From: Desulfocapsa sp.
GTDB lineage: Bacteria; Desulfobacterota; Desulfobulbia; Desulfobulbales; Desulfocapsaceae
Length of the DNA: 56,565 bases
Reading direction: 5' to 3'
Assembly: GCA_022712895.1 (NCBI GenBank)
Contig: JAFLJS010000018.1
Span: forward strand, 1-56,565
Below the pieces are notes generated by a model that worked only from the letters and a program-made list of their open reading frames with translations, searched no databases and was not told the origin of the DNA. This document shows positions 12,195 through 55,405 of this stretch, one piece after another. The position numbers and the translations under genes were made by a program. Position 1 is the first letter of the stretch; every line of letters starts with the position of its first letter.

Positions 12195-12244
12195 AGATGG
12201 AGAGTTTTTACCCTAACTATGGGTATAAATACGACGCCATCAAA
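12195..12244 (+). repeat. 50-base duplicated block, copy 1, containing a 16-codon ORF
   Basis: This block matches 32894-32943 at 47 of 50 bases. Both copies begin two bases before an ATG. Here the frame (12197-12247) reads MESFYPNYGYKYDAIK and ends with TAA, 18 bases before the ATG of the DUF2868 gene. The three differences are one synonymous Tyr codon change and two Tyr-to-His changes. GATGG and CCATC close the block as 5-bp inverted ends. No good ribosome-binding site precedes the small ORF. It could be a leader peptide, a small mobile repeat or an RNA element. Confidence 0.75.
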
Positions 12245-12265
12245 TAATACTATCGACAAAGTAAC

Positions 12266-32672: not shown

Positions 32673-33049
32673 ATAAACTGCCTGCTCGCTCGTTTTATTG
32701 ACGCTTGGCAATTCCATTCCTGAAGGTATCAAACCGTTTCGTTTCCCTGGTCAGCTTTTGAGTATATGGTTGTAAATTCTATCTCCTATCCTACTAAAGT
32801 GGCAGTTTGTTTTTTGCAGAAAAGTAGTGTTTTTGTTTGCGTAATCCGCGCAAAAATTGCGAGAATAAAGAGTGGGCAGTACTGTTGTCTAGGAGATGGA
32901 GAGTTTTCACCCTAACTACGGGCATAAATACGACGCCATCAAACTTTATGAATGAAAAGAAGTGCGAAGAGCAGATTCAAACGCCTTTCAGTTTATGGAA
33001 AGGTTTGTGCCGACATTCTCAATTCGAATTTGCAGTAAAGGAATTTTCT
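32673..33049 (+). other. Intergenic leader region with the second duplicated block
   Basis: No full gene is supported here. The frame of the next gene is open back to 32837 but has no signal-peptide or family character before 33050. The region ends the Tad operon, holds the 50-base block at 32894-32943 and presumably the promoter of the DUF2207 gene. Confidence 0.6.
32894..32943 (+). repeat. 50-base duplicated block, copy 2, containing a 19-codon ORF
   Basis: 47/50 identical to 12195-12244. The ORF (32896-32955) reads MESFHPNYGHKYDAIKLYE and stops with TGA, 94 bases before the DUF2207 start. Identity begins two bases before the ATG and stops after the sixteenth codon. An AGGAG lies directly against the ATG, too close for a normal ribosome-binding site. 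Confidence 0.75.
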
Positions 33050-52414: not shown

Positions 52415-53077
52415 CTATATCTTTTGTACATCCAATGCAATAAAGCCAGCTTTTTTATCTCTCTTAAAGCAGGGCGTTTCCATGGTACTCACTTCACCCG
52501 GTTTCTGATAGAGACTGGAGCTACTGTTTATAATTGAAAAACCGACATTCCGAATAAGATCCTCACATTTTTTAACACTGAAGAAATGAGCGTGTTCATA
52601 AAAGGGGTGCCCTGTTTCTTTCTTTTTGAGGAGTGCTTTTCCCCATAGGCTGGTGGCTGGAACAAAGCCAAGTATGAGGTGTCCATCTTTCTTTAGGATA
52701 CGATGACATTCACCAAGTACCTGGGCAGGATTCTGCACAAAACAGAGGGTGAATAAGATGGATACCCTGGTAAAGCAGTTACTGGGAAATGGCAAAGATT
52801 CACCTATGGCCTGGCACACCTTGATATCCCTGCTTGCTGCGAGATGGAGTGGTGCCATAGCTGGGTCGATGCCAAAATCTGATCCAAGTTCACGCGCAAA
52901 ACGTCCGGGGCCGACGCCGATTTCAAGGGCTGGGGAGGAGGCAGGGACTGCCAGGGCTCTGATGGTTGCAGCTTCGATATCAAAGAGTAAGCTGTCTTCA
53001 AACCAGCTATCATATTCGTCTGCGCGTTCATGGAAAACCGATGAACTTTTACGCCAGTGACTGGCCGGGGTGTTCAT
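52415..53077 (-). CDS. Class I SAM-dependent methyltransferase
   Basis: 220 residues. FHERADEYDSWFED is typical of small-molecule methyltransferase starts. ALEIGVGPGRFARELG is the SAM-binding motif I, GIDPAMAPL motif II, and LPFPSNCFTRVSILFTLCFVQNPAQVLGECHRILKKDGHLILG the core of Methyltransf_11. The substrate is unknown. It overlaps the mltA stop by 4 bases on the same strand. Confidence 0.87.
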   Translation of the reverse strand: MNTPASHWRKSSSVFHERADEYDSWFEDSLLFDIEAATIRALAVPASSPALEIGVGPGRFARELGSDFGIDPAMAPLHLAASRDIKVCQAIGESLPFPSNCFTRVSILFTLCFVQNPAQVLGECHRILKKDGHLILGFVPATSLWGKALLKKKETGHPFYEHAHFFSVKKCEDLIRNVGFSIINSSSSLYQKPGEVSTMETPCFKRDKKAGFIALDVQKI

Positions 53078-54261
53078 TGCTTCTCTTTTTCAAAATTGTT
53101 TTTGATCAGAAAGTAGAGTTCTCCTTTCTCTTTCATGCTGCCGGCTGCCGTTTTTGCGTAGCTACCACTTCCCCAATAAAGATCAGCACGTCCCGCACCC
53201 TTAATTGCAGACCCCGTATCCTGGGGGAAAACAAAACGTTGCATGGGAACCCATCTAAGGATATTCCCTTTACTGTCCAATTCTGGTTTTGAACTTATAA
53301 GGAAGGCAAGAGTCTGCTGGGGCAGTACGTCTGGGTCAATGGCAATGGAACGCCCGGCAACCAGAGGCTCCCCAATACTTCCAACAGGATCTCCCGCAGG
53401 TGCCCAGTTGAAGAAAATGAATTTACTGTTGTGATGTAATATCGCAGTCTGTTCTTCAGGGTGTCCGACAAGATAGGCCCTAATAGTGGGGATTGATGCT
53501 TCTTCCAGAGTGATTTTACCCTGGTCAACTAGCAGCTTTCCGATGGACAAATACTCGAGTCCATTAGAGGCGGCATAGTGGATAGAACGAATAGAACCAT
53601 CTGTGAGCTGAATTTTTCCAGAGCCTTGAACATGTAGGATAAAGGCATCGACCGGATCTTTCACGTATACCAGTTCACTGCCTGCGGCCTGTCCGTTTTC
53701 TTCAATTTCCTTGCGTGTCCAGAAGGGTTGTAATTGATTGTATTGATCCCTTCTCTTGAAAAGAGTCTTTCCAGTCTTAGGATCTTTTATCCAGAGAAGG
53801 GTTGATGGAGGAGAATACAGGGGATACAGATAAGGAGTTTCTTTGTTGAGGCTGCCCTGTAAAAAAGGTTCATAATAGCCGGTAAAAAGCATTTCACCTT
53901 GTGCAAAATCTTCACGCCCAACAGCTTGATAAACCGTGTAGTTCTCCGTCACAATGCGAGCCAACTCGTCACGGTTCGGATCTTGTTTCAGGATATCGAT
54001 AAAAGAATTCATCGATTCTCGTAACCAGGAAATGGGGTAGGTGTCGGTTCCCAATGAGTAAGATGCGTCACTTGGCAGTTTGTTTAAATAGTGCAGGTGG
54101 CGTACCGCCGCAGTGAGCAGTGTTGCAATTTGTGCGTCATCATTGAACGTGGGAGCCTCTCCTTGAGAAACTTTGGTTAGTGGTGCCTTGGCACAGCCAT
54201 TGAAAAGCATTAGCAGACCGGCAAGTAAGAGAAGAAAGGTACGATGCTTTAATAGATTCAT
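53074..54261 (-). CDS. mltA: Membrane-bound lytic murein transglycosylase A
   Basis: 395 residues. A lipobox LMLFNGC (Cys near 23) predicts an outer-membrane lipoprotein. FTGYYEPFLQGS and YVKDPVDAFILHVQGSGKIQLTDGS belong to the MltA barrel. The C-terminal 3D domain ends in DTGSAIKGAGRADLYWGSG, with the catalytic Asp. It cleaves peptidoglycan to 1,6-anhydro products. An MltB-like gene lies 97 bases upstream on the same strand. Confidence 0.94.
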   Translation of the reverse strand: MNLLKHRTFLLLLAGLLMLFNGCAKAPLTKVSQGEAPTFNDDAQIATLLTAAVRHLHYLNKLPSDASYSLGTDTYPISWLRESMNSFIDILKQDPNRDELARIVTENYTVYQAVGREDFAQGEMLFTGYYEPFLQGSLNKETPYLYPLYSPPSTLLWIKDPKTGKTLFKRRDQYNQLQPFWTRKEIEENGQAAGSELVYVKDPVDAFILHVQGSGKIQLTDGSIRSIHYAASNGLEYLSIGKLLVDQGKITLEEASIPTIRAYLVGHPEEQTAILHHNSKFIFFNWAPAGDPVGSIGEPLVAGRSIAIDPDVLPQQTLAFLISSKPELDSKGNILRWVPMQRFVFPQDTGSAIKGAGRADLYWGSGSYAKTAAGSMKEKGELYFLIKNNFEKEKQ

Positions 54262-54358
54262 GATTGTTCACATTTGATGGAGTGAGGCGTACACTTAGTA
54301 CGTCGTAGCGACAGTAAATTTGTAGTGACGATGCAGATGAAGAGTTTTTCCGACGCTA

Positions 54359-55405
54359 TCATTTTCGGATGGCCTCAGCCAGCTCACTCACCACCATCGC
54401 GTAACGATTTGAGTGATTCCACTGGGTGATGGCTTGGAAGTTTGGATACCCTGCGACATAACGTTTTCCACCTCCCTGGGCGGGATCAATTTCCAGTCCG
54501 ACAACAGTTAATGGTCTCTGCTCTGGTGGCGGGCTGAGTGCAACGTTCTGTTCCTCAGCAACTATTGCATAATCAACTAGGCCCTTGCGACCTTTTTTGT
54601 TGGCTTCTTTTACTGCATGGCCCATGAGTTTTGATCCAATATCTACATAATACGGGGCGTTCAGACTCCAGTGATAAAAATGCAGATAGTTGGCTATGGA
54701 TGCAAGAATATCAGGAACTGAGTTAAAGACATCTCGACGACTGTCGCCATCAAAACTTAGTGCATATTCACGAAAGCTTGATGGAATAAACTGTGTTTGA
54801 CCAAAGGCACCAGCGTAAGAGCCTTTGATCTTGAGCGGGTCGTAGTTGTTTTCTTTGCAAAGGATAAGAAAGTGTAATAGCTGTTTGCCAAAGAATTCAG
54901 ACCTTCGTGGATAAGCACTGAAGAGAGTGTTTAAGGCTCTAAAAACATTGAATCCGCCGCCATATTTACCAAAACGGGACTCAACTCCCCAAATGGCAAT
55001 AATCACTTCACGATTAACTCCCAGCTCTTTTTCAATCCTATCAAGGATTGTTTTGTATTCCAGGAGCTTCCTGGCTGCAGTTGCTATAACCTTGTTGGTG
55101 ATAAAGAGTGGACGGTACTGGTAATAGGGCTTGGACTCCCACTGCTTATCCATAAGAACGAGTACACGTCGCTTAATTGTTACATCACGGAAAATGTTAT
55201 CAAGTTCAGTTTGACTGAAGCCATGGTCGTGGATGAGTTCATCAAAAAGATTCTGGTATTTTTTTTGATTGATGTCTATCCGCTGTCCGTCCTGGACACA
55301 GTCGGCAGCTGCGATTTGATCATCGGCAAGACTATACTGGTAAATGAAAAGGAAAAATATGAGAAGGAGGAGGCTGATACTGCGTGAGTGGAAGTTATGT
55401 CTCAT
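54359..55405 (-). CDS. Lytic murein transglycosylase, MltB-like
   Basis: 348 residues. A signal peptide (SLLLLIFFLFIYQYSLA) without a clear lipobox. The lysozyme-like domain shows IIAIWGVESRFGKYGGGFNVFRALNTL with the catalytic Glu, and GSYAGAFGQTQFIPSSFREYALSFDGDSRRD, the MltB signature. It cleaves glycan strands in the periplasm; together with mltA it forms a peptidoglycan-remodelling pair. It ends 97 bases before mltA. Confidence 0.9.
   Translation of the reverse strand: MRHNFHSRSISLLLLIFFLFIYQYSLADDQIAAADCVQDGQRIDINQKKYQNLFDELIHDHGFSQTELDNIFRDVTIKRRVLVLMDKQWESKPYYQYRPLFITNKVIATAARKLLEYKTILDRIEKELGVNREVIIAIWGVESRFGKYGGGFNVFRALNTLFSAYPRRSEFFGKQLLHFLILCKENNYDPLKIKGSYAGAFGQTQFIPSSFREYALSFDGDSRRDVFNSVPDILASIANYLHFYHWSLNAPYYVDIGSKLMGHAVKEANKKGRKGLVDYAIVAEEQNVALSPPPEQRPLTVVGLEIDPAQGGGKRYVAGYPNFQAITQWNHSNRYAMVVSELAEAIRK

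Follow-up and report, generated by a model that had tools for sequence, protein, structure and literature searches.

The 50-base block at positions 12195-12244 of the window (the whole 56,565-nucleotide stretch of Desulfocapsa sp. contig JAFLJS010000018.1 that was analysed) almost certainly forms the right arm, at the terminus, of a MITE (a short, non-coding and non-autonomous mobile element) that is scattered through the genome and is probably mobilised in trans by the DDE transposase of an insertion sequence (IS). The sequence-only reading had described the block as duplicated on the same strand between unlike flanks, and this was confirmed: 47 of the 50 bases at 12195-12244 are identical to those at 32894-32943, the flanks do not match, and only about 7e-16 such block pairs would be expected in a random window of equal size with uniform bases. 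All three differences between the two copies are C/T, and the frames MESF-Y/H-PNYG-Y/H-KYDAIK that had been noticed in them are indeed present, as MESFYPNYGYKYDAIK and MESFHPNYGHKYDAIK. As for the downstream genes, which had been assigned to two membrane-protein families, the gene 3′ of the 12195 block has a clear Pfam match to DUF2868, whereas the protein encoded 3′ of the 32894 block scores slightly under both DUF2207 cut-offs.

A pattern search allowing up to 3 mismatches located the block at 22 places in the genome (G000, a 3.68-Mb assembly of 75 contigs), and a DNA search with 91 bases returned 44 matches, including copies missing the middle of the block. Combining the two block searches gave 40 distinct copies, 36 with the middle 21 nt and 4 without, a number that is a lower bound, as other forms of the element later yielded more right arms. 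Comparison of about 230 bases to the left of these copies revealed a long left flank common to most of them and, with it, the full element, which starts with GATAAACTCGTAAAAACCCAGAATTTAGATGG and ends with TACGACGCCATC. A left end was recognisable in 33 of the 40 block copies, the resulting elements being 147-199 bp long except for one of 73 bp, and was absent in L001, L003, L004, L020, L079, L083 and L084. With the 196-base form as query, 8 whole or near-whole copies at 93-98% were found in the genome, together with many shorter or partial forms, and the left-end pattern (up to 3 mismatches) gave 104 matches as compared with 1 for a reversed control.

In total, 53 two-ended elements were recovered from loci covering part of the places matched, the genome total being larger; they derive from 56 readings, from which second readings on the opposite strand were removed (L145 was kept as its shorter 127-bp reading), and they include one sister-family element of 101 bp (L138). 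They are 73-199 bp in length, with 154, 175 or 196 bp in 34 of the 53, and carry no transposase gene. Their terminal inverted repeats, GATAAACTCGTAAAAA on the left and GATGGCGTCGTAAAAA on the right, are alike at 12 of 16 positions and are followed by longer inverted arms. Read inward, the right end is GATGGCGTCGTAAAAA, or GATGGCGTCGTATTTA when it carries a 21-nt module, as in the window form. This module, which makes up the middle of the block, is an optional hairpin of 21-22 nt (TTTATGCCC..GGGTGA) that occupies mirror-image positions in the two arms. Single-strand DNA folding of the 196-base form gave one long hairpin of -49.4 kcal/mol, compared with a shuffled mean of -18.0 (z -9.8). All but one of 46 element readings lay outside ORFs of at least 80 aa predicted by a simple ORF caller; this set of readings, used also for gene orientation below, omitted elements less than 500 bases from the end of a locus and included L145 twice, once per strand.

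Exact target-site duplications flanked 31 of the 53 two-ended elements (26 of 6 bp and 5 of 7 bp), as against 0.83% at 6 bp and 0.04% at 7 bp, or 0.9% together, among 2756 mismatched left/right pairings; 22 of the 53 had no exact duplication. When the 101-bp sister element was left out and L145 was taken in its full reading, 30 of 52 elements had an exact duplication of 6-7 bp. In a first pass over the 56 readings, in which some elements occurred twice, repeats of 3, 4, 8, 9 and 10 bp were not enriched, an exact 5-bp repeat was seen in 2 readings (control, 0.36%), and the flanks were alike at five of six positions in 9. The first base was A in 23 and the last base T in 24 of the 26 six-bp targets. 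The intact MITE, chiefly of 154, 175 or 196 bp, is a large imperfect palindrome with ends of the kind recognised by a transposase, and lies, mostly in intergenic DNA, between the two copies of a duplicated 6-7 bp target that is A...T-rich. The sister element L138 (contig C26, about 1449-1550) is a different MITE of 101 bp with the ends GATGGACTCGTAAAAACCCCG and TTTTTACGGGTTCATC and an exact 6-bp duplication, and is perhaps moved by the same transposase as the main MITE.

In the window, two solo right arms and one further relic were annotated with nhmmer, all on the + strand: 1) 12195-12241, corresponding to model positions 129-175 of 175 and having the right end ...TACGACGCCATC (E 8.9e-12), 2) 32891-32940, corresponding to model positions 126-175 of 175 (E 2.3e-14), and 3) 54283-54360, more diverged and left-truncated (E 3.5e-10), which consists of the central hairpin and a right arm without the 21-nt module. 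The third relic sits directly upstream of an MltA-domain gene (53077-54261, - strand). Neither of the two block copies has a recognisable left arm, no target-site duplication was seen in the flanks of either, and alignment of the sequence to the left of both with the left part that they lack scored no higher than alignment of shuffled sequence. We infer that both are remnants of full insertions, of which the left part would have been lost by deletion and the right arm left behind.

It is very unlikely that the 46-bp arm, from GATGG to CCATC, is itself mobile, with each window copy representing a whole insertion of the arm. The arm does have 5-bp inverted ends and exists as two solo copies, and in L005, which is 73 bp long and flanked by an exact 7-bp duplication, a left end is joined directly to the arm. 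However, no duplication flanks GATGG/CCATC at either window copy, and partial copies of both sides exist, since the examined loci comprised 15 left-part, 7 right-part and 3 internal matches to the model besides 53 full ones, with some matches ending at contig ends or alignment ends and L005 (73 bp, complete) counted in two classes. Among the three explanations offered by the sequence-only reading, a small repeat with GATGG/CCATC ends nevertheless came nearest, its shortcoming being that the block is only one arm of a larger element. The start of a lost mobile gene is not supported, as the arm is non-coding, although the ends of the element are common to a transposase-bearing IS.

The third of these explanations, that the block encodes a leader peptide (MESF-Y/H-PNYG-Y/H-KYDAIK) and that translation of this peptide regulates the membrane-protein gene that follows, is extremely improbable. 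In its favour, the two window copies share one orientation and each precedes a gene, and an ATG followed by at least 15 open codons is present in 33 of the 36 module-bearing arms. However, open frames are expected because the arm copies are nearly identical, and three of the 33 (L038, L043 and L045) have a frameshift. Substitutions at codon positions 1, 2 and 3 numbered 28, 14 and 15, respectively, in 32 ungapped module-bearing arms, which is no third-position excess; if any position is in excess, it is the first (p 0.04, the arm copies not being independent). This arm-frame analysis kept two diverged arms (L083 and L084) and excluded the four module-less ones. Furthermore, arm lengths differ in relatives, and in the 46 readings the gene on the right-hand side was co-oriented with the arm 21 times and opposed 24 times, as expected at random.

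A module-bearing copy was present at none of the 12 DUF2868 orthologues of the genus, for which the upstream sequence examined was 154 bases in G005 and 1152-1500 bases in the others. The DUF2868 leader of G012 has a complete module-less MITE of its own in the opposite orientation (L223, 1265-1420). In the region upstream of the G003 DUF2868 gene (L225), a TTTTTACGAATCCATC element end was seen by eye, the same intergenic region having been hit separately from G012. DUF2207-like orthologues were found in four genomes: that of G013 has a complete MITE upstream in the same orientation, flanked by the duplication AATATT, and no MITE match was found at the loci of G007, G009 and G002. The right arm of the G013 MITE is module-less, and its reading therefore differs from the window peptide; the flanks of the G013 and window insertions do not align, and the two insertions may represent either one old event or two. 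With no third-position excess, frameshifted arms, random orientation and no such copy at the 12 orthologues, the MESF..AIK frame looks like a by-product of the element. The open frames MESFYPNYGYKYDAIK-stop (12197-12247, + strand), within the arm, and MESFHPNYGHKYDAIKLYE-stop (32896-32955, + strand), spanning arm and flank, were judged not to be genes.

A regulatory RNA or riboswitch-like element common to both genes is scarcely credible either: the predicted fold of the 12195 copy is better than that of shuffled versions (z -3.7; 1/200), but the 32894 copy stands out less (z -1.7; 13/200), the folds of both copies with their flanks are unremarkable (z -1.2 and +0.6), Rfam gave no match in the window at its gathering thresholds, and MITE copies adjoin genes in both orientations. 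Promoter and terminator scans around the 12195 copy found neither. Around the 32894 copy, four promoter-like sites were detected (1.0 in shuffles), all of them antisense to the gene and one just left of the arm, and the terminator scan found none. No support was found for a regulatory role of the block at the two window genes.

Similarity of the termini suggests that the mobiliser of the MITE in trans is probably an IS of about 1.9 kb with like ends, whose DDE transposase would act on both. Weak matches to an ISNCY transposase model were found between MITE-like ends in congeneric relatives, the useful candidates being such weak matches in G017 and G013 from a search of 36 relatives with NCBIfam ISNCY_1. 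The best of them is a 1885-bp element of G017 with an open 578-aa transposase, in which the domains DDE_Tnp_1_6, DDE_Tnp_1 and DUF772 were identified. This protein matches both the IS1182 (NCBIfam NF033551) and the ISNCY_1 (NF033593) models, but under their cut-offs, with 159 bits against 270 and 56 bits against 325, respectively. Two other loci, L180 and L181, exceeded the ISNCY_1 cut-off in the 36 relatives and were rejected as partners, as they have no MITE-like ends.

MITE-like end pairs, with up to 4 mismatches in the ends, were present in 15 of 28 IS-related loci of related genomes, and 9 of these 15 (6 genomes, 1887-1960 bp) had an exact duplication of 6-7 bp, a count that has no separate control; the G017 and G013 copies had no exact duplication. 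Duplications of 6-7 bp are also characteristic of the ISDol1 group of ISNCY, which has a type member from Desulfococcus. One IS end each in G086 and G013 was identical to the module-less right end of the MITE (16/16 bases), six other IS ends (in G086, G013, G017 and G065) matched the nearer MITE end at 14 of 16 bases, and the unscored ends in G111, G160, G168 and G171 were visibly more diverged. The module-bearing right end, which is the window form, matched the IS end at 13 of 16 bases, the first 12 being contiguous. The likeness between MITE and IS was seen at the ends only, the interiors being compared by eye.

The candidate transposase was present in 4 of the 36 relatives (E 1e-5) and in 19 of 257 genomes of the order (E 1e-20), and neither search found a matching transposase in G000. 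Among the 257 genomes, 52 had the MITE, 19 had the IS and 6 had both, a co-occurrence that was not significant (Fisher p 0.23). A 1214-bp element of G011 (L183, C86, 723-1936) has like ends and an exact 7-bp duplication, ATATGTT, and encloses a broken ISNCY-like transposase different from the candidate one (197 bits, under the cut-off), which suggests that more than one transposase may use such ends. Because of this element, the lack of a matching transposase in G000 and the non-significant co-occurrence, the link between the MITE and the transposase is regarded as probable only. At another locus (L201; G015, C167, about 767-2793), an IS1182-family element is inserted in the central CTAG of a MITE hairpin; its 502-aa transposase scores 414 bits, over the cut-off, and belongs to a GAGCTTGTCCGAGAA-ended element nested in the MITE, so that the locus was rejected as a parent element.

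The exact block pattern was found in 7 contigs of a species-level genome collection, which may omit records near the window's own genome; the sources were two Desulfocapsa MAGs and one labelled Pseudomonadota. The 154-base MITE core occurred in 52 of the 257 genomes of the order, representing 16 of 69 genera, and had no match in phage and plasmid collections. Literature searches on MITEs and IS in Desulfocapsa, Desulfobulbaceae and sulfate-reducing bacteria returned no description of the present family.

Several bacterial MITEs are nevertheless similar in kind. The Chunjie MITE of Geobacter uraniireducens, as described in a review (PMC10969869), is alike in having 178-235 bp, tens of copies, conserved inverted ends and direct repeats, in being intergenic elsewhere, and in having many partial copies, some without ends or repeats; its host is different, and the likeness is one of description. 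QMITE2 of Coxiella burnetii, according to the same review (PMC10969869), is about 190 bp long with 78 copies, ten of them full-length, and some copies, shortened at one end by about 40 bases, look like extragenic palindromes; the host is unrelated, and the likeness is again one of description. Truncation is described there for other MITEs as well (PMC10969869). Correia/NEMIS, ERIC, RUP and other bacterial MITEs (PMC2229807) share a size of about 100-200 bp, inverted ends, long stem-loops and, in some, open frames, but the termini of Correia, ERIC and RUP are TA (PMC2229807), whereas the present MITE has GAT...ATC ends and 6-7 bp duplications. The block is ordinary mobile-element debris of a bacterial MITE family. 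Its recognition removes a false lead, the shared leader peptide, and provides a usable annotation, namely a MITE family that has tens of copies in the genome and probably an IS as its partner. Unless recognised, arms of this kind in front of genes can pass for conserved peptides, riboswitches or operators.

The hairpin module was distributed among 52 elements as follows: neither arm in 13, right arm only in 20, left arm only in 10, and both arms in 9, an alternative count of 15 for neither arm including the 101-bp element and the second L145 reading. Exact duplications flanked 8 of the 13, 13 of the 20, 4 of the 10 and 5 of the 9 elements, respectively, and hence 18 of the 29 with a module in the right arm. 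The module pattern occurred at 64 places in G000; of six newly examined, five were in recognisable copies and one, L303, was in what by eye was only a degraded left-arm-like stretch, while a seventh locus, on C12, proved to be an already known copy. In relatives, a different module (GATAAGCGNAGACTTCGA) was seen by eye in the same slot. The simplest reading is that modules were lost from a two-module ancestor. It is doubtful that they were instead gained or swapped between arms, as could happen through template switching in the hairpin or a cruciform; if true, such gain or exchange would be a hitherto unrecognised route to the evolution and diversification of palindromic elements. The end of contig C2 (L088) and the start of C47 (L043) of G000 have an 83-base left flank in common, with MITE forms of 154 and 174 bp, respectively, and different right flanks, which reflects either strain variation or an assembly artefact. 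In arms of two relatives (L091, G012:C46; L235, G013:C9), a further hairpin was seen by eye, seemingly inside the module loop, as if nested.
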